From Moniliella sp. 'wahieum' (Eukaryota > Basidiomycota > Moniliellomycetes > Moniliellales > Moniliellaceae): a DNA stretch of 64,000 nucleotides. This document shows, piece by piece, positions 2,273 to 51,945 of this stretch. The DNA is taken from NCBI GenBank assembly GCA_003971905.1, contig RSEE01000011.1, forward strand, positions 310,001 through 374,000, read 5' to 3'. The translations under genes were made by a program, and so were the position numbers. The notes below the pieces were generated by a model. It was not told the DNA's origin. It searched no databases and saw only the letters and a program-made list of their open reading frames with translations. Within the stretch, counting starts at the first letter, position 1, and each line of letters opens with the position of its first letter.

Positions 2273-2313
2273 TCGCGTGACGTGTGACGTGTGACGTGTG
2301 ACGCGTGACGAGA
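2273..2313. repeat. 7-bp array, ACGTGT/ACGCGT type
   Basis: Units of six bases plus a G spacer start at 2273 (TCGCGT), 2280, 2287 and 2294 (ACGTGT), 2301 (ACGCGT) and 2308 (degenerate). The spacing is exactly 7 bp throughout. Confidence 0.85.
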
Positions 2314-2346
2314 GATGGGGAGGGGTGTTGCATGTTAGGGTCTTTG

Positions 2347-2382
2347 AAGCTTGAAGCTCTTGAAGCTTGAAGCTTGAAGAGA
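2347..2382. repeat. 7-bp array, AAGCTT type
   Basis: AAGCTT plus G units start at 2347, 2354 (AAGCTC), 2363, 2370 and 2377 (decayed). One 2-bp phase slip lies between the second and third unit. Confidence 0.85.
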
Positions 2383-2522
2383 GGCAACCGGCAACCGATC
2401 TCCGCCGAGCAAGCGTTGAAGAACCTAACGCTACCAAAGACGCCCGCACTCAGCCATCGCTCGAGGCCCGTGCTCCATCTGTAAAACAAGCTGCCTTTCA
2501 AGCCGCCGGGGTGTGCATCATC

Positions 2523-2542
2523 ATGCATCATGCATCATGCAC
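2523..2542. repeat. 7-bp array, ATGCAT type
   Basis: ATGCAT plus C units start at 2523 and 2530, with a decayed ATGCAC copy at 2537, all 7 bp apart. Confidence 0.8.
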
Positions 2543-2605
2543 CATGGATCGATTGATCATCAATATCTCAATCGTTAATTACTAATCGATAACAATTCAC
2601 CAGTC

Positions 2606-2665
2606 ACTAGTCACTAGTCCTAGTCACGCCACACGTCACATGTCACACGTCATATGTCACAGTGT
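2606..2665. repeat. 7-bp arrays, ACTAGT then ACATGT types
   Basis: ACTAGT plus C units start at 2606 and 2613. A second run follows with ACACGT (2631), ACATGT (2638), ACACGT (2645) and ATATGT (2652), again on a 7-bp period. Confidence 0.8.
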
Positions 2666-2827
2666 CACAGGATGGGCCGTGGGGCGTGGCACTGGCGGCC
2701 AGCCTCCCAATTCACGGGTTTAACGTTCCAGTCCGCTGGTAGTATGCCATAGTGGGCTTTAGTGCATTCTTAACCGGGAGAAGGTAGCCATAGTACGCGC
2801 GCTAGTCGGTGCCAAGTATTTAACGTC

Positions 2828-2865
2828 ACGCGTCACGCGTCACACGTCAGGCCTCAGGGACGCGT
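2828..2865. repeat. 7-bp array switching ACGCGT to AGGCCT
   Basis: Units start at 2828 and 2835 (ACGCGT), 2842 (ACACGT) and 2849 (AGGCCT), each followed by C. The palindrome changes but the 7-bp phase does not. Another ACGCGT lies at 2860. AGCGCT-type inverted repeats follow at about 2876-2900. Confidence 0.85.
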
Positions 2866-3374
2866 CAGGCAATCGATAAGCGCTGCGCTAAGCGCTAATA
2901 AGCCAGGGTGGTAAAAGTGTTTCACTTTATCGCCACCGTCGCTGGGGGGTAGTGTCCGGGCGAATGTCTGTAGCCTTTAAATTTGAACGTTGAACGCCAT
3001 CGAGAGATCGAGAAAAAAGGTGACGTACGTGAGACGTTCGCGCGTGTCTTATCTGTGCTCTGCCGTGGGTTTACGCACTTTAAAGCAAGCCATATTTTCT
3101 TTCTTGGCTGAATCGTGTCTTCCTTTCGCAGCAGCTCTTCGGCGAGAGATATAAAGGATCAAGTGATCGGCAAACCACTCCTGGCCCTCCTCAGAATCCC
3201 CAACTGGGCGAAGCAGCCCCAAGACGCCGTTAACAGGCGTATTTGGAGACTGTTTGACGCGGTCAACGTTCACCGTTCACCACTGCCACAACTTCCACCT
3301 ATCCTGTGTCTGCTCTCCTCTGCACACGCCAGCATGGGAAATATCCTTACCCGACTCGAAGCGATGGCGATCGC

Positions 3375-5030
3375 ATGAATGACCGCTTTGAGGCTGTTGC
3401 CAATCCTTCGTTCATCAGGTTTTATCGGTCTGTGTATTTCCAGATTGTGCTGGTGGGCATCGTCGCGTTGGCCGATCCTGGCATCTTCAATGCGATAAAC
3501 GCTTGGGCCGGTGGCCTAGCTGCCCCTTGGCTATACAACGCAAGCACAGCTTTGACATACGCGATCATGATCCCAGGTTGCGCTCTTGCTGGGATATTGG
3601 CCAATGCGTTCATCGGGAACAAGTGGACAATCGTTCTAGGTGCAATCTTTTACACGCCATACGCGTCTGCCTTATACGTCAACAACCGCTACGGCCGAGT
3701 GGTATATGCTATTTGGGGCCGCTCTCTGTGGCATTGGCGCATCACTGTTTTGGGCTAGCGAGGGAGCAATTGCTGTGGGATATCCTCTTCCATCAGAGCG
3801 TGGGCGCTGCATATCGGTATGGATGCTACTGAGAAACGGGGGGCCTTTGATTGGTGGTGCCATCTCCTGTGCAGTCAATCTCCGGCACGGCTCAAAGGGA
3901 GCTGGCCATGTTGCGCCAACAACCTATCTCTGTTTGGTGGGCGTCCAGTGCATTGGCGTACCTGCTGCTCTTCTTCTTTCCCCGGTCAAGCGTGTTCGCC
4001 GATCGGATGGCACAGGCGTGCCTCACGTCACGAGGGGCCAAACCACCATTCTCAAAGAAACCAAGGCATTAGGGCGTGCCTTGATCACCCCTCATATTGT
4101 GCACTTATGCCTATATTCATTTGTGGATTGTGGGGAACGGTAGTGCTGTCCAACTTTCTGGCTGCTACTTTCTCGGTCAGGACTAGGAGTCTCGCTTCTC
4201 TCCTGACGGCCATCTTCAACCTATTGGCAGATGTTCTGGCCGGGCTGGCCATGGACTGGAAAGCGCTTGGTGCGAACCCCGTGTACGCGCACGCAACCTT
4301 TGGTTCTTCCTTGGCACTGTCACTACTGGACTTTGGGTCTGGATGACTGTCACCGAGGTCCACTTGTCTCGACATCTCACGACAGTCTGGTGCAAAGAAC
4401 GTCGCTGACTATGGCACCCAACGGGCAAGTTCAACAATGCTTTGCCTCTACATTTTATGGAAGTAAGTTTCTTCTTTCGCGAGAGACTATGGTTTACTGA
4501 CCTTTGTGTTCTTCTTTTGTCAGGTTCATGTACGAAGCACAGCTCACCTTTGTCTACTGGCTAGTGGGGGTATTTCCTCAAGTCCCGGGCTCGATTGAGC
4601 GGGAAATCGGGGTCTGCGTTCATTTGAGAGTATTGGCTCTACCTTCAGTTACGTTGCTGGCGCAACACATTTCTCTTTGCTTCATCAGGAAATCTTGTTT
4701 GCTTTGTGGGGGGTTGCATTGCTGCCCACCACATACGCTGTCTTCAGCATTCCCGAATCTCGGGCCGACGGAAGCGACGACGTTGGAGAAAGCCCTACCC
4801 CCAGTGACCATGCCTCTCAAGATGAAAAAATCAGCTCTATTTGCGATCCCCCATCAACGACTGTTTACGACGAGCAGAAGCAAACTGAACCTTACGATGA
4901 AGAGAAGAATGCCACGTCTCCGTGCTGGTTACTGAGGTGCCATAAACGGGGTATTCGCTTTACATGGCTATATCTCCATGACCTCACACTGTTGATACCA
5001 CCCGCGTGTGTGCACCTTTCTTATATATGA
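3375..5030 (+). CDS. UNC93-like (DUF895) membrane protein
   Basis: Multi-pass membrane protein of the fungal UNC93-like branch of the major facilitator superfamily; the transported substrate is not known for the family. The N-terminal part carries FYRSVYFQIVLVG, a GIFNAINAWAGGL segment and NNRYG, followed in another frame by FWASEGAIAVGYP and the RNGGPLIGGAIS helix, all family hallmarks. The first ATG that gives this frame is 3375. A canonical intron lies at 4463-4523 (GTAAGT...TTTTGTCAG). The coding frame breaks by one nucleotide right after NNRYG (about 3690), again near 4130 and again near 4610, with no room for introns. The C-terminal tail from about 4750 is hydrophilic and acidic. It is first of four plus-strand metabolic genes. 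Either indel errors or a decaying gene; the conserved residues around each break favour error. Confidence 0.75.
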
Positions 5031-5804
5031 TCCGTTGGCTTTTTCTGTTATTGCATGCCATGGATTACATCGAAAGACTGAGTACTCAACGGAAGAGTAC
5101 TGAGATGTGATACTTTATTAGTGTTGTGTGTTTGTGGACCTGCTGTCAGTTTGGCAGTCGCGTTACCGTCATTTCTCTTCTCCCCCTTTTCTTTTGACCT
5201 CAGAAAGTTACATGTATATACTGCAGCTTGTTCAACCCTCAGGTGGGAACAAGGCACAAGGGTTTTAGTATACGTAAACCACATCATCACCATTGGATCA
5301 TTAATCTACTTTTCTCCACTGACAGCGGGTGCCGCCACCCACAAAGGCACAGAACATGATGTCTGTTGTTGTTGAGAGAGCCGACGGGTATAGAATAGCG
5401 CCACACAGAGGCGACGCGTGGTCAGCTACATGCATGATGGCGCTGACATGTATCCACACTTTCCGAGACTCAACAGTTGACTTGGATGAGGGATAGGAAT
5501 GGCCGTTGTCCCATGTTTCCATGTATAGGCGCTAACTGGTCATGAACGAGCGACATGAGCAACGTGGGGCCTGCAGTCGATATTCCGTTCTTATAGTGCT
5601 GACGTGTTGATGCGCGCTGATGTCAAATTTTAATTCCGTCTTCAAGCTTGCGCAGCGCGCAGCCTTGAAGCTTGAAGCTTGAACGTTGTTGAACGTTGAA
5701 CGTTCATTTCAACCGCCAGCCTGTCCACGTGTTCAACATCATTGGGCGCAGTTGCCATGTCGCCCCCCTGGTGAGCTGTCCCACTACCATTATCCCTTTC
5801 TGCG
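5031..5804. other. Intergenic, UNC93-like to GH55
   Basis: No conserved ORF is visible. The stretch holds one palindromic heptamer array at 5668-5704, about 100 bp before the probable GH55 start codon. Confidence 0.6.
5668..5704. repeat. 7-bp array switching AAGCTT to AACGTT
   Basis: AAGCTT starts at 5668 and 5675 and AACGTT at 5682, all with a G spacer and in the same 7-bp phase. After a 3-bp insertion AACGTT resumes at 5692 and 5699. The array sits just upstream of the GH55 gene. Confidence 0.85.
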
Positions 5805-8415
5805 ATGGCTTCCGAGTTCGAACCCTTTTGGATGGAGTCCATCAAGCACAATGGGCAGTCCCCTTATCACCTTCCTCTTCCTATGTCGTCTTTCGCAACG
5901 TGCGTGACTATGGCGCAGTTGGAGATGGAATTGCTGATGACACCGCAGCTATCAATTCGGCCATCGCATCGCTTGCCCGTCCAACCAATGGGCAGCCAGC
6001 CCCGGGAGAGCGATGCGGGTTCATGGGAGAGAGCAGCACCGTTGCACCTGCTTTGGTATACTTTCCACCTGGTGTCTACAGGGTCAGCTCTCCTGTGATC
6101 AGTTTCTACTACACCCAGCTCGTGGGTTCAGCATCGGACGGCCAACGATCCTGGCCGATCCATCGTTCCAAGGCTTCGCAATCATCGATGAGGATCCATA
6201 TGGGCCTGGCGGGAAGAATTGGTACACTAACCAAAATAACTTGTACGCTATTGGTCTGGCTCTTGAATTAGTGTGAAGTCTTGCATGTAGCTGACCATGT
6301 CGGCAGTTTTCGCGAGGTCCGAAATCTAATCATCTGCATGACAGAGGTTCCCCCGGAGCGGGAGGCGACCGCTATTCACCACCAAGTTTCTCAAGCAACT
6401 GGCCTCTACAATGTCTACATTACCATGCGCCCTGGATCGTGTCACAGGGGTATTTTCATGGAGAATGGAAGTGGAGGACTTCTCCGTCAACTCAAGATTA
6501 CAGGTGGACATACTGGAGCCGTGTTCGGAAATCAGCAGTTCACGGCTCAAGACCTGGTCTTCGAGGACTGCAGTGTGGCAATTGATCACATTTGGAACTG
6601 GGGATGGGTCTTCCACCACATCCAAATCACTCGATGCAACGTTGGGATTATTGCTCGGGGGAAGCCTTCGATGGCGATCGATTCCGAGCGTAAGCATCAA
6701 GCTGCTAGTGCATGTACTCTCCTTGATTGGACAGTCATCGACACGCACACGGCAGTTTTGATTGAAGGAGATTGTACTAGTGTCAGTATGATAATGTGCG
6801 TTACCGCTTATCCGTCATGTTGAACCCGTCTTGCGCCGTTACTAACTTGAGCTGGGGACCCACAGTGACAACTTGACACTATGATTGTGCTGCGGCCGTG
6901 CGGGATGCCAAAAACTTCTTCTTCCTGGGCCTGGTGTTGACACGCACACCAACTTCAACATCCCATCGTGGATCTCCACCCTCCAGATCGCAGGGGCAAC
7001 CCTCCCTGGGTGCGGACGCCACGTGCACTCCCTCTTCTGGACCAAGATGGAACTACTTTCGTCGCGCAAGGCCCCAATGTACGCCCCCCTTTGCCCCTCA
7101 TTCCCTTCCTATGTTTATGTACTGAACAGATTGTTGGTACAGACGAGCATGAACCTCATATTTGTTCTACAATGCGAAAGAGTGGGGCGCCCGAGGAGAT
7201 GGCGAGACGGATGATACTCTCGCTTTGCAACGTGCACTTGATGCTTCTGCCAGAAGGGAAAATCCTGTTTGGTGCGTGCTCCTCAAACTAATGTGGTTCT
7301 GCGATCTGACGGAGGTTGTTTTTCCCCAGTGCCCCATGGAACGTACATGGTCGCATCCACACTTCATATACCATTGGGCACTCGTTTGGTCGGCGAAGTA
7401 TGGCAGTGTTCATGGGATATGGCGCAAAGTTCAGTGACGCGGACGATCCTCAAGTCGTTTTCCGTGCTGGGAACCCGGGGACGAAGGCATTCTCGAAGTT
7501 TCCGATATGATCTTTTCAATTCGTGGACCAGCCCCGGGAGCGATTGTGGTAGAATGGAATGCTCGGCAACCGAGGGGCAACCTGGTGCTGTGGGCATGTG
7601 GGACAGTCATATTCGGATTGGTGGGTTTGCAGGGTCGAATCTGGAGGCAACCACAACCCCAAGCCGTGTTTTCATGTGGAAGAGGCCGGGAGGGCCGGCT
7701 TCCTCGGCCTGCACATTACCAAGCCAGCTAGCATTTACGCTAGCAATGTGTGGGTCTGGGTTGGAGATCATGATCTCGATGGTTCTCACGACCAGATCAA
7801 CGTTTTTTGTTCCCGTGGTGTCTTGGTCGAAGCAGACCCTGGACCAGTCTGGTTATACGGGACGGGGAGCGAACACAGTGTGCTTTACCAGTACAACTTC
7901 AATCACGCGTCCAATGTGCTTATGCTTGTGGGACAAACCGAGACGCCTTACATGCTCGGGGGCGGGTTCCCATTGCCATGCACCATTTCCCAGCCTCTTG
8001 CGCGTTGGGGGATCCCACCCCCCTGTTCCCAGAAGGTCGCGGCTGTGGCGAGTCGCAGGATCCGCATGTGCATCGCAGCTGGGGCGCACTGATCCAGGAT
8101 TGCCACCGGTGCACCATCTATGGGTTGAACCTATACTCCTTTTTCGATGCGTACGATCAGACTGGTTTGACGAAGCCACAAGGCTGTCAGCGTGCGCTGC
8201 TGCGTGTGGAGTCTGAGGAGGAGGTGGATGGCCAAGACGCAGTATACATCTTCCAGTTGGTACAGGTGGGAAGCCAGCTACTGATGGTGAAGAACGGGAA
8301 CGACACTGTGCTTCCACTGGGGGAAAGTCGGCGCAACGGATTCAGCTCCTGTTGGGAAGATTGGTCCAACGCCCGCGTCGGGGGGAGGGGAGTAGAATCC
8401 TTGACCAGTGAATGA
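5805..8415 (+). CDS. GH55 family beta-1,3-glucanase
   Basis: Glycoside hydrolase family 55 protein, an exo/endo-beta-1,3-glucanase family of fungi built from two pectate-lyase-like beta-helices. Family landmarks appear in order: FWMESIKHNG at the N-terminus, YVVFRNVRDYGAVGDG with a DDTAAIN strand (first helix), YFPPGVYRVSSP, GIFMENGSGG, NQQFT, WNWGWVFHHIQI, then FYNAKEWGARGDG with DDTLAL (second helix), WVWVGDHDLDG, RGVLVEADPGPVWLYGTGSE and the C-terminal YSFFDAY region. Clear introns are 6243-6306, 6796-6865, 7079-7129 and 7272-7329; splicing the first restores the NNFFREVRN strand. Frame breaks without introns lie near 5870, 6130, 7410 and 7500. The start at 5805 gives no signal peptide, unusual for a secreted glucanase; a leader exon upstream may be missed. 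Probably acts on fungal or plant beta-glucan. Confidence 0.85.
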
Positions 8416-11203: not shown

Positions 11204-13109
11204 CCATCGGTGCTTGAAGTTTAAGGGCGATGAGAGAAGTATAGAGTGGTTTGTCAATATCGTTGACGTTCTATACATGCGTTCACACATACGAAGTGAA
11301 GGCATTATATATAGCCACACCGTATTCATTAACCATATGCTCCGCTCTTACATCTTTACGGGATGAATTCACGGGCTCTCCCTCAGACGTCTACAGCACA
11401 TGTTTTTATGAGCGAAGATGGTTCAACGAGATAAAATGACCGACTTCCATATAATCAGTATACAGTTTATGTGGGGATGCTACAATCAGAGCCCCTCCAA
11501 TTTCCTTTCCAAGCGGTATGCACACGTTTGCGCGCTAAACAGTGGAGAAGTTAGCTCGGAGGGCTCGACTGCAAAAAGTCAAAAGGAAAGAGTGGGAGCT
11601 GGAAGACACCTGTCACCGTATTAGATCTCTTTCCAAATGGTCCTTCTGACTCGGGTCTGTCGTGTGGTCTCTCCACCACACATTTTATTACGTGCATTAT
11701 GCACGTGTGTGGCCTGAGATTCAGCATACGCCTATCGACCGTACTTGGACAGGAGCCCGTGGTGACCTCACCGAAGAGCTTTTTCACCACACAATAAGTG
11801 TACTCTCTCTAATAATCATCGATATCATCTCGACTGCTTGCCGTATACACGCCGCGTCCTAATGAGACGCGTTTCGATGCACACACGTGTAATAAATACC
11901 CCGCACCGGGTGCGTTGTCCAAGATGCAAAGAATATACACCACACAGTCGCTGAAAAAGCTTCATCTGAATCCTGCCTGATTAATCCATCATGGCGTGCT
12001 TCCTTCATTTGTGCAGTAATTACTAGTTATCGATCCTGCTATTCCGAGAAAGTGTAGGGAAAAAATATGTATAGCCGCACTAGCATCATCATGCATGAGC
12101 TTCAATATATCAATTCTTGAGCGTTTTGAATACGCTCTCCGTATACCCCAGCCGTCTAACGTCTATCCTCCTGCTGTCACGCGTCAGGTCTCATACCGCC
12201 GCGAATCAAGAGGCGGGTATAACAGCAAACGCAAGAAGCTTTGTATTGTGTGCATGTGAGCTTCAAGCTTCAAGATTAGTGGCTAGTGGCTGGGACCTGG
12301 TGTCTGGGGACCGGTGACCGGTGACCGGTGACCAGTATATCATATCGCCTCTCCATGAATCTAATCGCCGATTATCGCCGACAAGGCGTGCTGCCTTGAA
12401 GCTTGACATGTGCATGACGGAAGGTAGGAAGGATTGAGCTTGGCGTGGGCAGTATGCCATTTGCATGGCTCTCTCTTAGATCTCACGCAAGGATACTTTC
12501 AATGACATCAGGCAAACCCGCATAATGTGTTTGCCCCACAGTGCCAAAACGCGTCCTGGTCTATAGCCGAGGAGACCATCATGATGCTCCTACTGATGTG
12601 CTGAGGACACGTTCGTTAGATACGAACGACGGTCGGATGCACCCTCTGGTATAAACCCAAGCTATCAGCACTCTATGGCATTACCCGCGGCCTTGGCCCG
12701 CCGATGTTCACACGCCACTGCAACCATCTGCGATGCCCTCTCCGAGAACTGTGTTAATATAGCCCCAACCTTGTGTTGACCCGAGGACGCGATGGCGCAA
12801 CTCAACAACGGCTTGCATCTCTATGCACATGTTGACCTAATAACCGCGGGGTATTCCCTTTCAGGGCGATTGCGAGCCCGCGTCTGCCGTGGATGCCATA
12901 AGCTCATTGGAGCTCCATGCCAGCGGCGAGTAGAAGTCCGACATTCGGATGCAAAGAACGCTGGGGTCTTATTTCCTCGTCTCCCGTATCTCTCCAATCT
13001 CTCTTGCGTAGAAGTATTAGAGAACTGCCAAGTCACATGCCAGTTTTTCCCTCCATCCTCCGTCCACATCCTCAAGAACCCATTACCCATTGCCCATTCC
13101 CCCACCACT
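11204..13109. other. Intergenic, FMO to dioxygenase
   Basis: No conserved protein is visible. The interval is AT-richer than the genes and contains one clean ACCGGT heptamer array (12310-12336) and AAGCTT-like copies around 12257-12275. The last 150 bp are C-rich and precede the dioxygenase start. Confidence 0.55.
12310..12336. repeat. 7-bp array, ACCGGT type
   Basis: ACCGGT plus G starts at 12310, 12317 and 12324, with ACCAGT at 12331, a strict 7-bp period. Confidence 0.9.
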
Positions 13110-14576
13110 ATGGCTGCTGCTTCCGTTGCCACCCCGGCCCACGATGTGGGCACCCTGTCGTCGAAGCTGGAAGCGGTGAATCTCCAGTCCACACGGCCGC
13201 CGTCCAAGTTGGAATACGACCCGAACGTGGACGAAAAAGTGATTCGCGAGCGTCTGTTTGGCACGCCGTACGAACCCAACGAGAAGCTTTGGAACGTGGA
13301 CCAGGCCAAGTGGGCGGCCCAGCCAGCGGCCAAGCGCCAAGAAGCTTTTGCCAAGTTTCGTGCGTGGTTGCCGCTTCGTGCTGAAGGCCCTGCGGTCTGG
13401 ACGGACGGGTGTTGCAAGGTCAGCCGGCCAAGTGGCTGTACGAGTTTAGCGAGAGCGAGAAGGAGGAAGCGCAACGTGCACTGGAGCACTTTAAGACCTT
13501 GCCTGTTGCCCATGAAAAGGAACCGTTCAACTTTGATGCCATCTCGCCGGCAACCTTCCCTTTGCCCACGCTGAGCACGGCGCTTCACGCGGCGGCGGAC
13601 AAGGTTCTGAATGGGGTTGGGATCCAAGTGTTCCGTGGCTTGGATCCGGACCAATGGAGTCGGGAAGAACAGATCATTGTCTATGCGGGCGTGGCATCGT
13701 ACATTGTGTAATCCGCCTGGCGCAGCAAAAGGATAAAGCGTTGATCCACCTTCGTGACCTGACCAAGTTTAAGAAGGAGGACCGACCTGCGATCACTCTG
13801 AAGGGTACGTTGGTTCTTTCCTTTGCTTATGACAAAATGCCATCCGAATCGGGGTACGCACGTCACGTAGTAGTCCCAAGCTAACATCGGTGGTTGTGCT
13901 TGCCTTCCCACTTTCCAGGTCAGACTTCGGGCAACCAAGTGGCTCACACGGACGCCGGCGACATCATCTCCCTCTTCACGCTGAGTCCTGCGGCGGAAGG
14001 AGGGTTGAGCCAGGTAGCGTCGTAGGAGAAGTGTACAACTGGTTTGCGGAGCACCGGCCTGACTTGCTCAGTGTGTTGACTGACCCGAGTTGGGAGTGGG
14101 GCGGGCACGCGGCCATCCCCTTGGTTCACTGGTACCAAGGGCGCATCCTGGCGCAGTATGCGCGTCGTCCTTGGTTCCCCTTTTTCGAGGGGGAGCGCTT
14201 GGCCAACACGGTGGAACTGCCGTATGACAAGCACATCGCTCTTGACGGTCTTCACTTTACGGCCGCCGAGCGGTTTATCAATCTCGATCTCCAAAAGGGC
14301 GATCTCGAGTTTATCAACAACCTCCAAGTCTTCCACGCTCGCAACGCCTCGAACGACAATGACAAGACCCAGCGTCACTTGCTGCGTCTGTGGCTGCGCA
14401 ACGAGGAGAAGCATGTGCCCATCCCGGACGCTCTCAAGCCGCTCTGGACGCCCCTTTTGGACAACAAGAACCTCAAGTGGCCCCTCGAGGCTTGGGAAAA
14501 GAAACCTAAACGTTTCCGCTGGGCAACTATGAGGGACGTCTGTATGTTCTGGCTAAGTATGATCTATGATTGGTGA
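13110..14576 (+). CDS. TauD/TfdA-like Fe(II)/2-oxoglutarate dioxygenase
   Basis: Cytosolic oxidoreductase of the TauD/TfdA fold, which couples 2-oxoglutarate decarboxylation to substrate hydroxylation. The start ATG at 13110 opens MAAASVATPAHDVG. An intron lies at 13805-13918; splicing yields GQTSGNQVAHTDAGD, whose HxD pair (codons near 13945) is the expected iron-binding motif. The distal histidine is probably in QVFHARNASND near 14333, and the RHLLRLWLR strand near 14370 supplies the arginine expected to hold 2-oxoglutarate. The C-terminal LWTPLLDNKNLKWPLEAW segment is typical of fungal family members. Frame breaks occur near 13360-13410, 13705 and 14000. The substrate is unknown; fungal homologues are often annotated loosely as taurine catabolism enzymes. 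Confidence 0.8.
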
Positions 14577-15147: not shown

Positions 15148-15178
<31 letters not shown>

Positions 15179-17011: not shown

Positions 17012-17146
17012 GTCGGCCGTGGGCGGCTGTGGGCAGGGCAGGTCAGTATGTCTGCAAGCGAGGCCGGGAGAAGGGGGGGGCGAGAGACGTACAGCGACAC
17101 AGGACATGGAGGCGATGGGCGGAGGGGGCGGAGGCGGCAGGAGCAG

Positions 17147-17182
17147 CGGAGGCGGAGGTGGAGGTGGAGGTGGAGGTGGGCC
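17147..17182. repeat. GGAGGT microsatellite
   Basis: A run of GGAGGC/GGAGGT hexamers. It creates long false open frames on both strands just upstream of the homeodomain gene. Confidence 0.85.
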
Positions 17183-17865
17183 GAGGCAGGCGGCAGGGCA
17201 GGGGGGCCAGGAGGCACGAGGGCGTGCTGGTCCAGACAGGGTCCACGGCCAGGGCGCCGACAGCGCAGCTGGGCAGGCGGGCGCTGTGTGTGCCTGGCCA
17301 GCCGGAGCGCAGGCAACAAGCACCGCCGCCCCGCCGCCACGGGGGCAGTCGCACATGCACATGCTCTTCGACCGGCCATCGATCCATGAGCGATCCAAAG
17401 GCGGCGCTGGCAGACGCAGCTCTGGGCACGCCCTCGCACCCTCCGCTGCCCTCCCCTCGCACACCCTCCCAGCAGTGCTTGGCAAGGCTGCGCCCGCGCT
17501 GCGTTCGGTGCGCACATCAGCCGCACAGCCCGGCCACTGCCCCTGTGCCTCGCGATCACCCGGGGGGCCGCCTGGGGTGGCACGGGACGCATGACGAGCG
17601 ACTAGTGACTCGTCGTGATCGTGGTGACATGGTGACATGCGACATGCTGCAGGCGACAGGCGACATGCGCCAGGCGGCAACAGGCGGCAACCGACGCCTG
17701 CTGCTGGCTCTGGCCCCAGGGCGTGTTGGGCACACGCTTTGCCAGCGCAGCTGCATCCCACCTCCTGCATGGCCATCGGCGAACCGAGCACCGAGCATCG
17801 GGCACCGAGCATCCCAGCCTCCCTCCCGCACTGGGCCTCAGCACCAGTGTGCGGTGGCACCTGTC

Positions 17866-17899
17866 ACATGTCACATGTCACATGTCATGCATCATGCAT
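17866..17899. repeat. 7-bp array switching ACATGT to ATGCAT
   Basis: ACATGT plus C starts at 17866, 17873 and 17880; ATGCAT plus C starts at 17887 and 17894. Five units keep one unbroken 7-bp phase across the change of palindrome. Confidence 0.95.
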
Positions 17900-18109
17900 C
17901 TTGTAACATGTGACACATGCTCCGACAGGTGCGCGTGACATGCACACGGGCGACATGCGACAGCGCACCCTAGCGCCCTCCCCCGCCCCCTGCTGTGCCT
18001 GCCCCCTGCGCTCCTCCTCTGCCCCTGCCGCTGTTGCAGCGTGTTTGCGCCCCATGCGGCATCTGTTACGCGGCAAGTATGTACCCCGGGCTTGACGCCG
18101 GCCGGCTTG

Positions 18110-18138
18110 AAGCTTGAAGCTTGACGCGTGACACGCGT
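18110..18138. repeat. 7-bp array switching AAGCTT to ACGCGT
   Basis: AAGCTT starts at 18110 and 18117 and ACGCGT at 18124, all in phase with a G spacer. A further ACGCGT lies at 18133 after a 2-bp slip. A CCTCAGC/CTGAGG inverted-repeat cluster follows to about 18167. Confidence 0.9.
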
Positions 18139-18242
18139 GACGCCTCAGCCTGAGGCTCACCTGAGGGATTAATGATCGATGATGTTCAGTGTGCATGATG
18201 CAGATGACATAATGCATGATGCTCAGCTAGATAATCGATACC

Positions 18243-18269
18243 TTCGATAATCGATAATCGATAACTAGA
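18243..18269. repeat. 7-bp array, ATCGAT type
   Basis: TTCGAT (18243), ATCGAT (18250, 18257) and ACTAGA (18264) follow a 7-bp period with an A spacer. A separate ATCGAT lies at 18234. Confidence 0.85.
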
Positions 18270-18329
18270 CCTGGCGCCAAATCGGTGACGCGCACGTAAC
18301 AAGTAACGCGTACACAGTAATCCTAGTAG

Positions 18330-18356: not shown

Positions 18357-18420
18357 ACCCGGCTGCTCAGCGCGCGTCCCAAGCAACCGGTAAGTATCAA
18401 GTGTCCAGGGTGTTATTTAC

Positions 18421-18575: not shown

Positions 18576-18711
18576 CCCAGCTGTTGGGAGTATAGCACAC
18601 CCGCGGTCAAATCCACCGTTCCCACCATGCGCCATGCTGTTTTCGGGGAGGATTGGACGTTGGACGTTGGGGGCTGGCTACTTCAGTCACACATGTAATC
18701 ACAGGAGCCTA

Positions 18712-18745
18712 ACTAGTAACTAGTAACTAGTAACTAGTAACTAGG
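18712..18745. repeat. 7-bp array, ACTAGT type
   Basis: Four perfect ACTAGT plus A units start at 18712, 18719, 18726 and 18733, with a decayed ACTAGG at 18740. It is among the cleanest arrays in the window. Confidence 0.95.
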
Positions 18746-18781
18746 GAGTAGAGTGCGGGGGGGCCTGGATGTCTGGCTGTG

Positions 18782-18802
18782 ACATGTGACATGTGACATG
18801 TG
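18782..18802. repeat. 7-bp array, ACATGT type
   Basis: Three perfect ACATGT plus G units start at 18782, 18789 and 18796. Confidence 0.95.
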
Positions 18803-18863
18803 AGCCGCCGCGAGCGTGAGGCGTGACGCGTGAGGCCAGCGCGTTATAGACGCGGAGCCCGCG

Positions 18864-36154: not shown

Positions 36155-37080
36155 CAACCTGACTTCTAAACATGCAGCAGATCATCACTTGATTCATTCG
36201 AGAGGCTCCCTCTCCCCCACACTACTACCAATGTATAGCACCACTGGTGGATACTCCCTTCATGCTTTTGTTTTAGATGATAAAATGTCACGGCGTGGGG
36301 ACAGTACACAGTACCTTCGTCCAATCGCAGTAGATGGATAGAGTACTGATTTGGCCTTCTCGCGGTTGCGCACCCGCCCTTACCCCCACCCAGTCCGCCA
36401 GCTCCATCGGCATCGCTGCCTGTGTGTGCCCCATCCCTTATTCAGTCGGCGGCTGGGGATTTCTCCCCTTTGGTTACTTCGTCCCATACGCGCATAGGCC
36501 AACTGTGACGAGGTACAGAAGCGCGGCCTATCTGGCCAGGCCAACGCTCTGGTGCTCCCAAGTGTGCCCTCCTTGTCCCTAAAGTTACAGGCCTGTCACA
36601 TGTCACTCTTAATTCCACCCCAACGTGTTTCTAAACCCGCCTCCTTCACTATAGCCACCCGTACTCACGCTGCTTTTTCACTACCTACTGTGTACCAACA
36701 TCACATAGTCACGAAAACACCTTTGAGGCTGAAGCTCTGATGGGCTGCAGCTGTTGAGTACATATTGAGTTGAAGCCTGAGGCTCAGGTCCTCAGGCCTG
36801 GTCTTGTGTTTTGGCTGCTGGCATTGCCGTCATTGTCTTGACAACACTCTCAAGCGGGACCTTTTTTTTCGTGGATACCATACCAGTAAGCCACGAAAAG
36901 GTTCGGTTGGGGTGGGTTGTTGGCCGCGGTGGATCGAGGATCGCTGTTGCGTGCTACACAATCAAGTTTTCCAGAGAGAAGCGGTGTAGACTCGTATTGG
37001 CCAGCATCCTGAGCCAGGAACCCCCAGCCGGCCATACTTCTAAGAGGGCGTCGAGCTGCGGCCCCCACCAGTCACTGATC

Positions 37081-37107
37081 ATCGATCATGCATCATACAT
37101 CATGCAT
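37081..37107. repeat. 7-bp array switching ATCGAT to ATGCAT
   Basis: ATCGAT at 37081, ATGCAT at 37088, ATACAT at 37095 and ATGCAT at 37102, each followed by C, in one 7-bp phase. Confidence 0.9.
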
Positions 37108-37960
37108 CTACCGCCCCACAACTTGCGTGACACGTGACTGGATGGTCAATTAGGCACGGGCTGTGGACCGTCCAGCGCTCGATGGAAAAGAGGATCCGGA
37201 TATCTACCGCTGCTTCTTCGGGCCCGCCGGGACCGGGCGCTCATGCTATGGCTCGCTCTCACACCAAGATGTGTACGACGACATGCCGCCTCTTCGGCCC
37301 CATTCTCAGTGACGCGGTGACGCTGAGCGGAAGAGCAAGTTTCTTCTGTGGTTGGTGGCTTCGGAAGTCGGGAAATGGGCCAAGTGGGAAATTTATGGTG
37401 TTTTCCACCATCAGTATCAGTAGCGCGACGAGACCGCCACCACCGCCATCACCACGCCCCGCCTTGGGGACCTCCCGGTCACGAAGCTGGGGTGTATCGT
37501 ATTCCGTGGCTCTCTTCTAGTCTGGCTTTGGGGCTAGCTCGGATCGGCCTCTCCCTCGGCACTTTTCAGTTTGCATATATAATGGCGTGGAAGGCACAAT
37601 GATTAATGAGGCGCTGAGCTCAGCCTGAGCGCTGCCGGTTGACGCGGTTGACGGGTGACGTTGAGTAAACTGAATTGTGCGGGGTAGTCCGTATGTATAT
37701 CGTCTACCGCCAACCAAAACCACGGGTGATCGAGACACCACGCGACGCGCATACGGAGTAAGAATCAAGCCGGAAGCCGGACAAGGGGATGTGGGGAGTG
37801 TTGGCTACTTTGGCCGTGCAAGTTGCGTTACCGTCGGAGGTCAGTGGATTGGGATGCCGATGCAGGGCATATGGTGAGTGGGAACCCACCGGCTATGGGG
37901 CCGAGGGGATGTTAGGATAGCGCTTGGCCCGGTGAGGACGACTCCATCGATAGATGGGTT

Positions 37961-37980
37961 ACCGGTTACCGGTTACCAGT
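37961..37980. repeat. 7-bp array, ACCGGT type
   Basis: ACCGGT plus T at 37961 and 37968, ACCAGT at 37975. Confidence 0.9.
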
Positions 37981-38517: not shown

Positions 38518-39806
38518 TCAAGGAACCAGGGGGATCGCCAGGATATCAGGACCCTCCGGCTCACGCCATCCGGTCCCGTACCCTAGGAAGCGCGTATGGA
38601 CACGGAGGAACGTGGTTGACATCCGAGCGAGGAACCAGTTCCACTGAGACTTAGTAGCCAACTCCTTCCAATGCGCAAACAACTTGCTCGCCGTCTTGGT
38701 GCCGTAGTATCCTCGCGTCGTCAAAACCAGGGGAAAAACGTCTCTTGAGTGCTTCCCTGGTACTTGGCGTTCTTCTCGCATTCTGCTTGTTCAAGCATCC
38801 GAAGCAGCTCCTTCTCCCGGCGTTCCAAGGGGGTTGCGGTGCTCGCATGCACCACCCTTCGGAACGCGCTCTGCGCTGCCAGTGATCCCGTGTCACGCAG
38901 CGTGTGGTCGACCTCCATTCCTGATCCTCCGAGTGCTCCGGGTCCCATCACGCGGTAGTCAGTGCGCTGTGTCCTCTGTCTCCGGCCATCCTCGTCCTCC
39001 ACCATTGGTTCGTTGTGGACATGGGTGTCGGGAATGGAGCCTAGGAGCTGGAGAATGGGCTCCCGCACTGCGTCATGCAACGCTCCAAACTTGGCCTGGG
39101 AGCGAGTGCAATACATGATGTGCTCCAGCGAGGACATGACACCGCACTTGCACATGCTGCGCGTGGTGCGGCACAGCGTGCGGAGCTGGAGACCAACCTG
39201 GACCTGCTGGTCGGAGAGCCTGAGGTACGGGACGGACGGAATGGCGGAGAGCCAGTTGTGGCTCAGCGGGTTGCTGTGCTCAACCACGTGACGACCATCG
39301 GCAGCGTCCAGCTTCTGGAGCAGCTCCTGTCGACAATTCTCCCACATCTCGCGGCAGCGCTGGCGTTGCTTCGTAAATGCGTTGGCCTCTGCTGTTTGCG
39401 GTCCCGAACGGTCAACATAAGTGGTAATAAGATAGTCGTTGACCTCGTTGGCCGCGGCACGGGCGTGGGGCGCGATATACGAGTAAAGCGGGCTGCCGCA
39501 TCCTCCTAGTCGGAGAGGCAGGCTCATGAGCATGTCGAAGTGGTCGTCCTTGGCACCTTGGGGATCCTCGTCGCCCCGGATCCGTCGGAACTCCGTACAG
39601 ATAAAGGCATCGATCTCGGCCAGCACTTCGTCTAGCTCTCCTTCCATCTGCATGGTGCGGAGCAGGTGGCGCAGCTTGGTCTGAGTGCTGAGCCGCCATA
39701 GTAAGAGGCGTCCCTGGCGGGTGATGCCATCAAACTTAGGCATGTTCTTCCTCAGACTGGCCAGTTGGGCCCGGAGCCACGATAGACGACAGTCTACCCC
39801 TCCCAC
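38518..39806 (-). mobile_element. Truncated LINE (non-LTR retrotransposon) ORF2 fragment
   Basis: The minus strand encodes about 430 residues that look like the C-terminal half of a non-LTR retrotransposon polyprotein. LMSLPLRLGGCGSPLYSYI matches the segment that follows the reverse-transcriptase thumb in many LINEs. A CCHC-like zinc motif (MCKCGVMSSLEHIMYC) follows, then RTDYRVMGPG with GMEVDHTL and KNAKYQGSTQ, which fits a restriction-like endonuclease (REL-ENDO) core. One frame break near 38740 separates this from FPLVLTTRGYYGTKTASKLF and the final WFLARMSTTFLRVHTRF, ending at 38518. The catalytic reverse-transcriptase motifs are absent and the frame opens without ATG at 39806, so the copy is 5'-truncated. 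Endonuclease type suggests the R2/NeSL/CRE side of the non-LTR tree. Confidence 0.7.
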
Positions 39807-40429
39807 ACAAGTGCCCAGAACCTGCAGAAATATTCCCTACCGGCACCACTACACCAGTTGTGATGTCACAGACAAGAAGACGCGAGCGTTCGTTAGTAGT
39901 TACTCCCATCAGGATTCAGGTAGTACCGGTTACCGGTCGGGGCGATGGGGGGGTATTGGAATCACTAGCACTTCTCAGCACCCCCCGCTCTTACACCTTC
40001 CTATTTCAGTCCACACAACATGCGATGTGCTGAACACAGCATCCGATCCGACGCCCATATGGAGCTGGTGCCGCCCACCACACCCGGGGTGAAACAATGG
40101 ACCGATAGCGCCAGTCCCGAGGACCCGGTCTGACGCGTGACGTGTTGGTGCCCAACCTCTTTGGTTGGGAAATACTTCGAGTACTGAAGGCCACGCTGAG
40201 ACCATGCTGACTGTGTATGAGGACTGAATGTTCCATGTTCCAATCTTAACAAAGCCATGGATTTCCGCACAAACGGCGCGACGCAACAATGGGGAACGCT
40301 GGAAGATGGTGGTACTGAGTACCTTTTGAAGGGGGTGGGAGGAGCAGGACCAAGAGGGATTTGTCTATGTGCGCGTGAGGGAGGATGTAGGGGGGGGGGA
40401 TTGAGGAGATAGAGGGGAACACGAACGGT
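39807..40429. other. Intergenic, LINE to nucleoside hydrolase
   Basis: No gene seen. Contains an ACCGGT pair at 39925/39932 and a G run near 40390. Probably includes the nucleoside hydrolase 3' UTR. Confidence 0.55.
39925..39937. repeat. 7-bp pair, ACCGGT type
   Basis: ACCGGT at 39925 and 39932, T spacer, 7 bp apart. Confidence 0.75.
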
Positions 40430-46893: not shown

Positions 46894-49821
46894 ATGGCAT
46901 CCCCGAGTCTGAGAAGAACCCATGGCTGACGCCTGCGCTCGCCAAGCCCACCCACTACGACCTGCTCATCAAGTCGGATCTGGAGCAGCTCACCTTTACT
47001 GGCCTGGTCACCATTTCCCTTGAGACGCTCGTTGACACGGCTGAGTTGACGCTCAATGTGGGTCCCAGCTGGTGGTCAGCAAGGCCCTGGTGGCCAGCGA
47101 TGTGCTGAAGAGCTCCACCTCCACCCTTGTGCCTTGAGCTCGACACGGACCACGAGCGTGCTACCCTGCGCCTGCCCCACACCCTTCCTGCAGGCAGCAA
47201 GGCCAGCGTGACGTTGCCTTTGGCGCCGAAATTGACAAATCGATGGCGGGCTACTACCGCTCCAGTTGGGAGCACAAGGGGCAGAAGGGCTTTTATGCCT
47301 TGACCCAGTTTGAGCCCACCTCAGCCCGCAAGGTTTCCCCTCGTTTGACGAACCTGCGCTCAAGGCCACGTTTGCGCTTCGCTTGATCCACCGTACCCAC
47401 ACGGTTGCGCTGGGCAACATGCCTGTGGCCGAGGCCAAGCCCGTTTCGGAGGCAGAGATCACTCAGTTGCTGCGTGCCAAGGAGCTGGAACTGGAAGAGG
47501 ACAAGATCGTGCCCCCTCGGATGCGACGCTGAAGACTGAGAAGGCCGAATGGGACTGACTCGGTTTGACGTTACGCCCATCATGTCGACCTACCTCGTTG
47601 CTTTGCCGACGGCAACTTCCTCCATCTCGCTTCGACCTACACCTCCCCCCTGACGGGCAAGACGGTGGACGTGAAAGTGTACACCACACCCGAATATTCA
47701 CCAGGCTAAGTTTTCGCTCGAGGTGACGACGCGTGTGATGCCCGAGTACGAGAAGGTGTTTGATATCCCCTACCCTCTTCCCAAGCTCGACACACTTGTT
47801 GCCAGTGACTTTGATGCGGGTGCGATGGAAAACTGGGGGTTGATCACCGGTCGCACCTCCATCTACCTCGTCGACGAGGAGAAAGGTGGATTGAGCGCCC
47901 GCAAGCTTGCTGCCAGCGTTCAAAGCCACGAATGTGCCCACCAATGGTTCGGGAACATTACTACCATGGCATCTGGGAGAGGTACGTTCTCTACGTTCTT
48001 CCTTCCCCCCTAACCCCTTTGCTCAGCCTCAGAAGGGTGGAAGCAATGCTAACGCAGTTCCAGTTTGTACCTGAACGAGGCTTGGGCCTCTTTGGCCGGC
48101 GAGGTGATTATCTTGGACCGTTGCTGGCCGGAATGGACGTCAGACCGTGAATTTATTGTGGCCCACTTGTCGCGCGCGCTCGAGTTGGACGCCAAGCGTT
48201 CTTCGCATCCGATTCAAGTCCCGCTCAAGGGCGAGAATGTCGAGGCGGCGATCAATGAAATTTTCGATGCGATTTCCTACTCCAAGGGCGCTTCGGTCCT
48301 GCGCATGCTGATGAAGATGGTGGGGAGGATGTGTTCCTGAAGGGTACCTCGATTTACCTGAAGAAGCACTTGTAGGAAACGCGAACCCGGAGGATCTGTG
48401 GAAGGGTATTGCCGAGTCGTCGGGCCTGGACATTTCCGCCATTATGGGCAAGTGGGTACTGAAACAAGGCTTCCCCGTTTTGACCGTCACCGAGACGGAG
48501 GACGCGATCCAGGTGCGCCAGAACCGTTCTTGGCCACGGGCGATGTGAAGCCAGAGGAGGACGAGACGTTGTGGTATGTTCCGCTCAACCTCAAGACGGT
48601 GGCACGATGGTGCGCCCACGGTGAATGCTGGCCTGGTGCTGAACGAGGAGCGGGAGACAACCATCCCGCTCAAGGGCGCTTCGACTGCACCCTGGAAGCT
48701 AAATGCCGATACGGTGGGAGTGTATCGGGTGGCCTACACGCCAGCCCGCTTGGCTCTGTTGGGTGAGGAGGCAGCCCGGGCCGATTCGGCTTTCTCGTTG
48801 GAAGACCGGGTGGGGCTGGTGAACGATGCGCATACCTTGGCTCGGGCCGGGTACGCCAAGACAAGTGGGACACTGACCCTGCTCAAGAAGATTGCGCGGG
48901 AACCTTCCTTCCTGGTAACTCGGCGGCGCTCAAGGCGTTTGCTGACCTCAACTCGGTGTGGTACGAGGAGCCCGAGGAGGTGCAAGCTGCGCTGAAGAAG
49001 TTCCAAGTCGATTTTGGAGCCCCAAGGCTCAGGCCCTTGGGTTTGAGGGCAAGCCGGATGATTCGGTGGACGTACAGCAGTTGCGTGCCCTGGTACGTAT
49101 TTCTTTTCTTTTTGCCTGTTGGCGTTTATCTTGGCATGATCATGGCAACCCAACTAACGACCTTGTGCAAACTTGATGATTAGGCAATTGGTGGTGCGGC
49201 GAGTGCGGAGACCCTTGGACTGTCAAGGAGATTCAGAAGCTGTACGCGGCCATGCTGGAGGGCAAGGACACGATCCCTTCGGACCTGCTTTCCCCCGTGT
49301 ACATGACGGCGGTCAAGTACGGCGGAGAGAAGGAATACGAGCGCTGCTCAACATCTACCGTGCCCCCCCCACGCCGGCCCACAAGGTGGCGAGTATGTAC
49401 GGCATGTGCGCGACGGAGGATGCAGCGCTACTGAAACGGACGGTGGACTTCCTGTATTCCGGGGAGGTGAAGGAGCAGGATTTTTGTACTACTTCCGCTG
49501 CATGTCGGTGCGTCCCAAGGCGCGGCGTGTGTTGTGGGCGTCGACGCAGGAAAAGTACGATGTTCTGGCCAGCCTGTTTGCCGGCAACTTTGGTCTGGGC
49601 CGCCTGATCGAGTCGTCGTTTGATGGCTTGGCAACGGAGAAGGATGCCGAGGAGGTGGAGACGTTCTTTGCTTCGAAGGATGTGCGGCGCTTCACCATGG
49701 CCCTTTCCCAGGGCTGGAGAGCGTCCGTGCACGGGCCGCGTGGCTGGCGCGGGCGCGGGAGGATGTACAGGCTTGGCTGACGACGATGGCTACCTGGCCT
49801 GAGCCTGGGCGCCTGAGCTAA
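46894..49821 (+). CDS. M1 family zinc aminopeptidase
   Basis: Cytosolic M1 metallo-aminopeptidase of the yeast Ape2/Aap1 (puromycin-sensitive) group, releasing N-terminal residues from peptides. The ATG at 46894 is followed, after a short indel, by NPWLTPALAKPTHYDLLIKS. FPSFDEPALKATFAL, the exopeptidase motif GAMENWGLITGR (about 47819), the zinc site HECAHQWFGN (about 47927) and LYLNEAWASLAGE supply the catalytic set, with HExxH and the downstream Glu intact. AISYSKGASVLRMLMKM and IMGKWVLKQGFPVL follow, then the helical C-terminal domain ending EDVQAWLTTMATWPEPG. Introns are 47982-48063 and 49093-49183, both with CTAAC branch sites. At least ten one-base frame breaks occur; each piece continues the family sequence, so this looks like error more than decay. 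Length after correction is near the usual 880-900 residues. Confidence 0.88.
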
Positions 49822-50041
49822 GAGTCTGCCTGCCTGGGGCGCTGGTTTACACGGATGGTCTCCCTCGATCATCTAGATGTCGATTAGTGCTGGTCGGCAG
49901 GACTGGGACCGCTGTCAGCTGCCACTGACAATCTACTGCCCATTTGTTCTGCAGTCCCTTCCAAGCGGCTGGTCTTATCTTGCCGTGGCGGCACTGCCTC
50001 AGCTTCCGTCTGTGGGTTAGGGATGGGCGGATGCTCATCTC

Positions 50042-50054
50042 AGATCTCAGATCT
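50042..50054. repeat. 7-bp pair, AGATCT type
   Basis: AGATCT plus C at 50042 and 50049, preceded by a partial unit. Confidence 0.8.
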
Positions 50055-50213
50055 CATTGAAGACATCTTTTGGTTTGCTGTCTCGATAGATTGGGGCGGG
50101 CAATGGATCGAACGTCTCTTCCTGATCGGATGAATCAGCCAATCAATAACTTAATCAACTGTTGACAGTATAGATGGGCAGTTCGGACTATTCAATTGAA
50201 TGTTGACATGGAC

Positions 50214-50249
50214 AACGTTCAGTTGAACGTTGAACGTTGAACGAACGTT
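50214..50249. repeat. 7-bp array, AACGTT type
   Basis: AACGTT at 50214, 50226, 50233 and 50244, with a decayed AACGAA at 50240; the central units are 7 bp apart with a G spacer. Confidence 0.85.
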
Positions 50250-50996
50250 GACACTACGCTGACAGACGCAAGTGGTGAATGGTCGTCCATATGTGGGGGG
50301 CGATCATCTGTATGTCATCGAAGGTATCATCGGGTACCACCACATGGGGCCATGCATCTTAAGATCTTGCCACAAATCATTACATCCGCTAGGCTAGAGG
50401 GTGACGTCATCCGTAACGCTTGGGTCGGGCGGCTCTCGCAAGCGCATGGCATATGGACGCGGACGCCTGAAAGTACCAACGCGACGCGAAAGGGATGGGA
50501 CGTAAGGCTCAGCGCGTGCGTGTGAGGGCCGGAGTCACCGGTCACGGTCCGACCTGACGCTCCCGAAGAGGTGTTGTAACGAACATGACTTTTCTGTCGG
50601 CCAAGAAGCCAAGGCTTGCAGAAGACCTGCCGACTTTCTTTGAACGGTGGGGCAATCTCATCAGAATTCAAGTTTTGCGTGTTCACGATGTGCGCAAACT
50701 ATTGCACCATGCACTACCACGTGTTGTCGCATGTCGGGCGCCACCTGTCTCAACGCCATCGAAGCCAGGGCGGCGGGCCAGGCGGGGTCTCGCTGATGGG
50801 CTGCGAGGGGAAGGAACGTAAGGAAGAAGACCTAAGGAACCCTCTGGGACAGCTGAGGCCTGAGATCCTGAGAGGATGGGGGGATGGGGGGATTGGATCC
50901 AGAGCACAGGATCCGTTGCAGACTGACAGACTGGCCTCGGGCTGGCCAGGCACGAATCCGATCACGTCGATCAATAAGTTGATCACCAAGGCGATC

Positions 50997-51010
50997 ATCG
51001 ATCATCGATC
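50997..51010. repeat. 7-bp pair, ATCGAT type
   Basis: ATCGAT plus C at 50997 and 51004, within a GATCA-rich stretch. Confidence 0.8.
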
Positions 51011-51625
51011 TCGATCAGGGCGATCACACAGATCACCACCGGGCTCAGCGCGCGCTGGGCCTCAGCATGATACTGCACATACTCCACCTCCCAGCGTTGA
51101 GCCGCTGTGGACAGGGTGCACTCTTTCTTTGTTTCTGGCGGCTGAGCCTTAGCGCCTCAGCAGATGTGCAGCCGCAAGCTGCGTAAATGCAACCGGTAAG
51201 GCCTATGGCCGAAACTCGATAACCGGTACCGGGCGACTGGCGACCGGTGACGGTGAGCGGATATAACCCACCGGTAACTAAAGATGATCGATGAATGACT
51301 AGGTAAACGTTACCGCACAAGGGTAAGAACCCGGTAGCCAGTCGCTGGCAACTAGCAACGGCTACCGGGTATTGATCTCGACGGCGAAGGTGATTAAATT
51401 GGAGGTGCGCAAGGGCCTGCTACCAAGAGAAAGAGGCGTCATTAATCATGCATCCTTCGGACACTGTGGATGGCTTTTTGTGGTATGGCCGAATAAAGCT
51501 GTGGCCACCCATCATCCCATTCATAGTACGGCGCACATGCCGTCAATGCCACCGCGCGTGCCATCCTGTCACAATTGGCAGAGCGTCGCTGCATCATTCA
51601 TGTGAAGCAAACCGACGCGCAGCTG

Positions 51626-51652
51626 ACGCGTTACGTGTTACGCGTTACGCCT
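51626..51652. repeat. 7-bp array, ACGCGT type
   Basis: ACGCGT (51626), ACGTGT (51633), ACGCGT (51640) and ACGCCT (51647), T spacer, strict 7-bp period. Confidence 0.9.
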
Positions 51653-51861
51653 CGACGAGCACAGACCATGGTGCACGATGGATGATGCCCTCTCACAACT
51701 TGCTCATCCCGTTGTCCTGGGCACCCCCGCTTGCCTGTGACACATGCATGACGGAGTGATGCAGGTGATGTATGCACGCCACCACGCGTGACAGGTGATG
51801 GGTGGCGCGCAGCGCGTGACGCGTGATGTGACATGTGATATGCGCCGCCTGAAGCCAAGTG

Positions 51862-51881
51862 ACATGTGACGCGTGACGCGA
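51862..51881. repeat. 7-bp array switching ACATGT to ACGCGT
   Basis: ACATGT (51862), ACGCGT (51869) and ACGCGA (51876), G spacer, in phase. Confidence 0.9.
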
Positions 51882-51918
51882 CGCTGCACTCGGCTAAAGC
51901 TCGCTTGCGCTGTGCGCC

Positions 51919-51945
51919 ATGGGTGACCGGTGACGGGTGACAGCT
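51919..51945. repeat. 7-bp array, ACCGGT-like
   Basis: ATGGGT (51919), ACCGGT (51926), ACGGGT (51933) and ACAGCT (51940), G spacer, in phase. Confidence 0.8.

Follow-up and report, generated by a model that had tools for sequence, protein, structure and literature searches.

Period-7 palindrome arrays in the genome of Moniliella sp. 'wahieum' share a T-N-A core and are probably born by flank-templated snap-back copying

Short tandem arrays with a 7-bp period, in which a six-base palindrome beginning with A alternates with a single spacer base, are scattered through the genome of the fungus Moniliella sp. 'wahieum'. We analyzed them in a 64-kb stretch (C11:310001-374000, referred to as the window) of its 69.5-Mb assembly of 223 contigs, and in a 264-kb discovery sample composed of the window and twenty 10-kb stretches. 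The array signature is real, genome-wide and highly specific, and it is mutational in nature. Judging from sequence, we favor the view that the arrays are scars of a recurrent snap-back micro template switch of fixed geometry, followed by copy-number growth; this mechanism is probable yet unproven.

The 264 kb contain 124 exact repeats of period 7 that span 15 bp or more, against 3.6 expected from Markov-1 simulations, and 47 such runs, palindromic and non-palindromic, lie in the window. Counts for the neighboring periods were lower (period 5, 19; period 6, 74; period 8, 38). When arrays of at least 14 bp were typed by palindrome unit, the first base of the six was A in 94, G in 4, C in 2 and T in none; in the window, 34 of 35 palindrome-unit arrays started with A. 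The A-palindrome rule had been put forward by a first-pass annotation, and comparisons with simulated sequence and with non-A palindromes bear it out. Thirteen of the 16 possible A-palindromes occur as arrays in the 264 kb, AAATTT, AATATT and ATATAT being absent as arrays there. Ten of the eleven palindromes originally named form window arrays that reach 14 bp; AGGCCT is present in shorter elements only (2847-2856, 20617-20626 and 50854-50863), and the list had omitted AGCGCT, which is found at 1646, 2885 and 57554. The ACTAGT copies reported at 18712, 18719, 18726 and 18733 are correctly placed.

The same bias extends across the assembly, where overlapping placements within one array were each counted. 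The pattern (ACTAGTN)x4, which is its own reverse complement so that plus and minus rows denote the same places, starts at 86 places; the reversed pattern, which is a T-palindrome of equal composition, starts at 1. CTTGAAGCTTGA was found 2537+2431 times (reversed pattern, 1+0), TSACTAGTSANNNNTSA, for which homotypic CTAG arrays score on both strands, 1047+1028 times (reversed pattern, 8+9), and TGANNNNTGANNNNTGA 9859+9738 times, against 2109+2051. The 200 kb of stretches outside the window hold 117 arrays, which extrapolates to tens of thousands.

An A-palindrome plus spacer is equivalent to T-N-A (TNA) followed by a four-base palindrome, with TNA as the constant part. Cores in the same orientation around a palindromic tetramer were strongly enriched, with 192 cases of TGA..TGA or TCA..TCA against 5.4 expected and 51 of TAA or TTA against 0.4. 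Cores in opposite orientation (TGA..TCA, 13 vs 4.4; TCA..TGA, 7 vs 3.2) and control cores (AGT/ACT, 5 vs 4.2; GAC/GTC, 16 vs 8.0; CAG/CTG, 21 vs 14.8) gave far smaller numbers. The ends of the 100 palindrome-unit arrays, 94 of them of the A type, fell in the NN-TNA-NN register in 58 of 200 cases, against one in seven by chance (p=6e-8). General palindrome enrichment was rejected as a cause, short odd and even palindromes being near expectation; odd palindromes with 6-base arms (127 vs 51) chiefly have TSA/TWA centers and are the arrays themselves. Longer reflections (X s X' s X) were likewise set aside, as they are isolated cases, and TGA-palindrome-TCA is enriched weakly.

The tetramer in turn follows its neighbors. 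A typical single element reads XY-TNA-Y'X'-XY-TNA, 7 bp more than XY-TNA, or the mirror of this, the tetramer consisting of the flanking dinucleotide and its own reverse complement. Among 196 distinct TNA-palindrome-TNA elements, the 7-bp match length peaked at 5 (50 elements), with match extensions of (2,0) in 20, (0,2) in 22 and (1,1) in 8. The tetramer agrees with one flank or with both in 147 of the 172 one-kind arrays, where chance gives 12%. The fit is left-only in 57, right-only in 53 and two-sided in 37; in most arrays, then, the palindrome would arise in the course of the event itself, out of a single flanking dinucleotide, and left and right flanks act as template at similar frequency. 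Twelve arrays of the 264 kb hold more than one kind of tetramer, all of them exactly two kinds when arrays are ended wherever a tetramer is non-palindromic, and of their 24 ends 16 agree with the flank, where chance would give 1 in 16 (p=2e-14). In the first 100 rows of the genome-wide match list, which come from contig C1 throughout, 98 arrays could be typed, and 28 of these were one-kind and palindromic; of the two-kind arrays there, both tetramers were palindromic in 16, one in 36 and none in 18.

Two scans of products make the same point. Products of snap-back copying with a 2-nt stem and a 3-nt loop numbered 505 against 41, with TGA (116), TCA (114), TAA (35) and TTA (29) among the loops. 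NNTNA repeated after a 2-nt gap occurred 399 times against 18.5, and the gap was the reverse complement of NN in 294 of the 399, that is, an inverted copy of the adjacent segment, after which XYTNA is repeated as a return to the template would have it. When 30 core classes were compared for templated single elements, TCA/TGA had 72 and TAA/TTA 20 (0.5 and 0.0 expected), and the remaining 28 classes had 0 to 13 each. The identity of N has a small effect (8-13 events per 1000 sites for every base), and about 1% of XYTNA sites carry an event (231 of 20,093, both strands). In eleven fungal loci (32 kb) outside the discovery set, TNA cores scored 85/162 and other cores 38/1247, in a non-random sample in which nine loci adjoin arrays and had the probe array masked, two came via protein search, and multi-copy arrays were counted per unit. 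The array rule of the first-pass annotation is real and holds genome-wide; what it missed was the TNA core, the templating by flanks and the two-kind arrays.

A second, diverged copy of the region lies on contig C28 and is colinear in the parts compared. Representative window elements, none assigned to a strand, are as follows, with the state of the C28 copy where noted.

18710..18740, TAA core five times with CTAG four times (the ACTAGT array); the right flank fits and the left does not; C28 has TAACTAGTAACTGGTAACTAG.
17864..17894, two-kind TCA array with CATG three times and TGCA; TG on the left fits CATG and TG on the right fits TGCA; C28 has one CATG less.
18108..18131, two-kind TGA array with AGCT twice and CGCG; the left flank fits, the right not exactly; C28 has one AGCT less.
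18685..18691, empty site AG-TCA-CA; C28 has AG-TCA-CTAG-TCA-CA (+7); diagnostic.
1884..1893, right-templated TAA-TTAA-TAA-TT; C28 has the empty site TAA-TT; diagnostic.
18160..18166, site CCTGAGG; C28 has CCTGAGGCCTGAGG (+7); both flanks fit, and plain duplication is equally good.
18780..18803, TGA core four times with CATG three times.
18248..18264, TAA core three times with TCGA twice; C28 has one copy less.
2361..2377, TGA core three times with AGCT twice; both flanks fit.
2521..2537, TCA core three times with TGCA twice.
12315..12331, TGA core three times with CCGG twice.
37079..37095, two-kind TCA array with TCGA and TGCA; the left flank fits, the right not exactly.
37959..37975, TTA core three times with CCGG twice.
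50224..50240, TGA core three times with ACGT twice; identical in C28.
51860..51876, two-kind TGA array with CATG and CGCG; the right flank fits, the left not exactly.
51829..51838, left-templated single element TG-TGA-CATG-TGA.

The C28 counterparts (L041, L040, L026 and L042) correspond to window positions 1237-6055, 13949-25067, 26862-30819 and 49025-53996, and differ from C11 by 555 substitutions in 23,197 aligned pairs (2.4%). The genome may accordingly be that of a hybrid, be duplicated, or represent two phased nuclei. For the 39 aligned flank-templated arrays of C11 the surroundings were identical in 5, differed by substitutions only in 7 and differed in length in 27; for the 35 of C28 the numbers were 5, 7 and 23, and some of these surroundings overlap and share indels. 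There were 15 indels of 7 bp between the copies, compared with seven 6-bp and three 8-bp ones, and whole-unit steps of 7 bp separate the copies, for example at 17862, 18105 and 18244. No plain 7-bp duplication could produce the differences at 1884 and 18685, which makes these two diagnostic. As a separate observation, a 14-bp insertion at 18365 in C28 produces inverted copies of a 6-mer in alternation, spaced by one base, akin to these scars but with a longer period.

Ordinary heptamer slippage that favors palindromic units would account for these whole 7-bp steps between C11 and C28, and it draws further support from the existence of non-palindromic 7-bp duplications and from two-sided flank fits (37 of 172) above the number expected from one-sided templating. 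Slippage probably does drive growth past two copies. As the origin of the arrays we nevertheless find it fairly unlikely. A slipped 7-mer would yield at least 7 matching bases, an identical new copy, as is seen at 1936 and 3267; the match length instead peaks at 5 and falls below 7 in 106 of 196 elements, and the insertions at 1884 and 18685 differ from plain duplication. Moreover, palindromes with other ends are rare, and flanks determine the two-kind arrays. The earlier suggestion of slippage-grown, hairpin-linked repeats therefore points in the right direction, whereas 'seeded on palindromes' describes a minority of the arrays.

In the snap-back mechanism that we prefer, a nascent strand ending in ...XYTNA-3' would fold back with T opposite A, the only pairing within TNA, and N as the turn; a longer pre-existing inverted repeat would not be required, given the 57 left-only and 53 right-only arrays. 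The folded 3' end would copy two bases, Y'X', a limit that the proposal takes to be imposed by the enzyme. The resulting 7-nt minihairpin, a 2-nt stem with the 3-nt TNA loop, would persist as a bulge while synthesis went back to the regular template, at the base of the hairpin, and copied XYTNA again. Because the hairpin base is the re-entry point, the return point requires no added assumption, and N would therefore be identical in both copies. Since either strand can fold, left and right forms should be about equally common. One-kind arrays would grow by slippage or where the event recurs at a given TNA, and two-kind arrays would combine one event per flank.

The same product sequence would result from end joining at breaks with a 5-nt stagger, in which XYTNA is filled in at both ends and two P-nucleotides are added by hairpin opening. 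Palindromic P-nucleotides from hairpin opening are familiar from V(D)J joining, and a 2-nt palindromic addition with a 4-nt palindrome is consistent with opening two bases off-center. Such joining, however, requires a nuclease that cuts asymmetrically about the symmetric TNA; symmetric cutting would yield 3- or 7-base duplications. In P-nucleotide joining, palindromic bases could come from either end, whereas the added bases stem from the XY end: gaps starting with the complement of NA, as expected of bases from the TNA end, made up 26 of 399, the chance level. Plain 5-bp NNTNA duplications were also not raised (gap 0, 20 vs 16.5). We consider this route unlikely.

PIF/Harbinger-like DNA transposons duplicate a 3-bp TNA target, and the TNA flanks with a palindromic filler do resemble a target duplication with retained inverted-repeat tips. 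Footprints of this kind, with two bases kept per inverted end, would show the TNA duplication, and TNA is indeed repeated in each element, by definition of the class. On the other hand, the filler follows the host flank (147 of 172) rather than an element end, and nearly every palindromic tetramer is present. The PF13359 transposase, one family among transposases, had no match in the 69.5-Mb assembly. An origin in footprints thus seems extremely improbable.

Several observations weigh against snap-back copying or limit what it explains. Its 1-nt turn is strained. Neither flank fits in 25 of 172 one-kind arrays, 92 of the 192 arrays that reach 14 bp in the 264 kb have non-palindromic units, and one array at C1:61651-61674 has three kinds of unit (TGCA-CTAG-CATG), so that an extra step is needed. 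The geometry is not exclusive: non-TNA loops account for 211 of the 505 stem-2/loop-3 products, stem-2 products with loops of 4 and 5 nt are raised (51 vs 9.8 and 41 vs 4.8), as are NNTNA repeats at gaps 1, 3 and 4 (80, 79 and 101 vs ~15), and the 28 non-TNA core classes total 123 templated elements against ~34 expected (for instance CCA/TGG, 13 vs 3.5, and ATG/CAT, 12 vs 1.0). Products with stem 3 and loop 3 are scarce (12 vs 2.8), and the two-base limit must therefore be assumed. Plain 7-bp duplications (class D) numbered 12 at TNA, with 291 placements at other cores; non-palindromic ones separate the two copies of the region at 1936 (AGTGATT) and 3267 (CGTTCAC), and the empty sites at 18160 and in L042 are equally compatible with plain duplication. 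Differences between the copies could moreover run in either direction, since an empty site of identical form results when a deletion joins two TNA repeats.

The rate per XY did not track stem stability significantly (Spearman -0.32, p=0.23), and stem stability was accordingly dropped as a determinant of rate; CT and AG were highest, GC and CC low, and TA, TT and AT had 0, 0 and 2. Loss of a flap nuclease or of mismatch repair was also rejected as a cause, on 12 XPG_I and 21 MutS_V matches in the assembly, which show family membership rather than paralogue or activity. No repair defect is thus identified, XPG-type and MutS-type families being present, and this too counts against the proposal.

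Flank-templated TNA-tetramer-TNA units are nearly confined to noncoding DNA. Only 1 of 213 (in stretch L016) lies in predicted coding sequence across the 264 kb, and unit density is 0.018 per kb in predicted coding against 1.015 per kb in noncoding sequence, with a codon-based prediction that labels 21% of the sample, partly misses known exons (tetraspanin, 0.54 covered; RING, 0.0) and, as it stops at stop codons, is biased against units oriented as TGA/TAA, not as TCA/TTA, on the coding strand. In the window no unit falls in predicted coding sequence, in agreement with the absence from exons noted at first. Under snap-back copying, +7 frameshifts in exons would be purged by purifying selection. 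The window has 67 arrays, and they are strongly clustered, with 13, 13 and 12 of them in the 2-kb bins at ~2-4, 18-20 and 50-52 kb. Other noncoding stretches of the window are nearly array-free, unlike these hubs.

Near-exclusive location outside predicted exons and regular spacing are also what sites selected for a palindrome-reading factor would show, as the first-pass annotation had suggested. That suggestion is not supported, given the diversity of tetramers, a density near one unit per kb in predicted noncoding sequence and the length variation between copies in 27 of 39 C11 arrays. Selection for binding is very unlikely, and we do not read the arrays as a binding code.

The window also contains exons of ALG11, PTPA, a tetraspanin, a nucleoside hydrolase and a WD40 protein, which we take to be RACK1-like; no known RNA family scored above threshold within it. 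The PTPA protein matches basidiomycetes, with Tilletiaria anomala closest at 59% (best 120 of 5122 matches), and its second copy (C28:497308-498288) has two in-frame TGA codons within the matched stretch, reflecting an intron, an error or decay. On the minus strand, 38721-39836 is an open frame of 371 codons that has no Pfam match; its Cys/His spacing is reminiscent of that at the end of a non-LTR (long terminal repeat) reverse transcriptase. Within an array hub, ~38 bp at 18946-18983 form a dispersed repeat unrelated to the heptamers, present at 79-95% identity on many contigs (~16 of 42 places listed).

The period is not peculiar to this fungus. A prokaryotic scan for CTTGAAGCTTGAAGCTTGA returned at least 120 loci (L043-L162), and Pseudomonas, Stutzerimonas or Halopseudomonas account for the majority of the 80 titles listed; examples of their (AAGCTTG)n arrays are one of 87 bp (L083) and one of 77 bp (L080), all 120 loci considered. 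Their unit is TGA-AGCT, the commonest unit of the fungus. A-palindrome arrays in these loci were of AAGCTT, the probed unit, in 129 of 130 cases. Outside the probe arrays the TNA rule was weak (17/469 vs 6/571 in one simulation); one such genome had 46 TGA-7-TGA-7-TGA matches, chiefly with AGCT or GGCT units. In the same loci, flank-templated 7-bp elements were also seen with GGA/TCC (24 vs 2) and AGC/GCT cores (47 vs 17, one simulation). Over-representation of heptameric repeats in bacteria has been described, with a polymerase-contact hypothesis offered (PMC4692102); they share the period with the fungal arrays, and AAGCTTG is TGA-AGCT in the TNA grammar. Tentatively, a eukaryotic replication or repair activity might repeat a stereotyped '2 copied + 3 TNA + 2', so that noncoding DNA would be written in heptamers dictated by two adjacent bases, with the same geometry behind the bacterial heptamer excess and (AAGCTTG)n in Pseudomonas as a seeded case. 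This would offer a testable reason for a period that, in the available part of that paper, comes with a hypothesis only.

The first-pass annotation knew of no described element of this kind, and none turned up among the open-licence papers listed, nor did a description of the TNA and flank-templating rule; related mutation classes are known. Fusarium mitochondrial DNA has palindromic (A)n/(T)n microsatellites (PMC7218506) that, like the arrays, are fungal, short, intergenic and length-variable, but they are mononucleotide and mitochondrial, without period 7 or a TNA core. Small inverted triplications linked to FEN1 (PMC13334657) have the same DUP/inverted/DUP order, here XY / Y'X' / XY; their segments average 148/160/148 bp with a 30-bp spacer, whereas the arrays have 2/2/2 nt and a 3-nt spacer, far from the ~150-bp segments and ~30-bp spacer of that class. 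At yeast breaks, end joining completes foldback insertions that RPA and Rad27 limit, and the loop measured 41 nt at the locus in question (PMC11724301). These are likewise very short inverted templated insertions primed by local microhomology; they differ in joining break ends, and tandem arrays are not described in the available part of that account. In rad27-delta yeast, 21 of 455 changes were fold-back events via inverted repeats or quasi-palindromes (PMC5677150, which cites Ripley 1982 for quasi-palindrome, or template-switch, mutation). There too a nascent strand copies itself and palindromes are made or extended; what sets the arrays apart is the fixed 2-nt copy across a TNA core at ~1% of XYTNA sites. 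In this class of microsatellites, individual elements reveal the origin of the repeat and not just its growth, flanking bases setting unit sequence, length and position, and through such arrays template-switch errors, otherwise hard to detect, become countable in bulk. Together, these comparisons would place the signature within the known class of template-switch mutations, as an unusually specific and abundant member.

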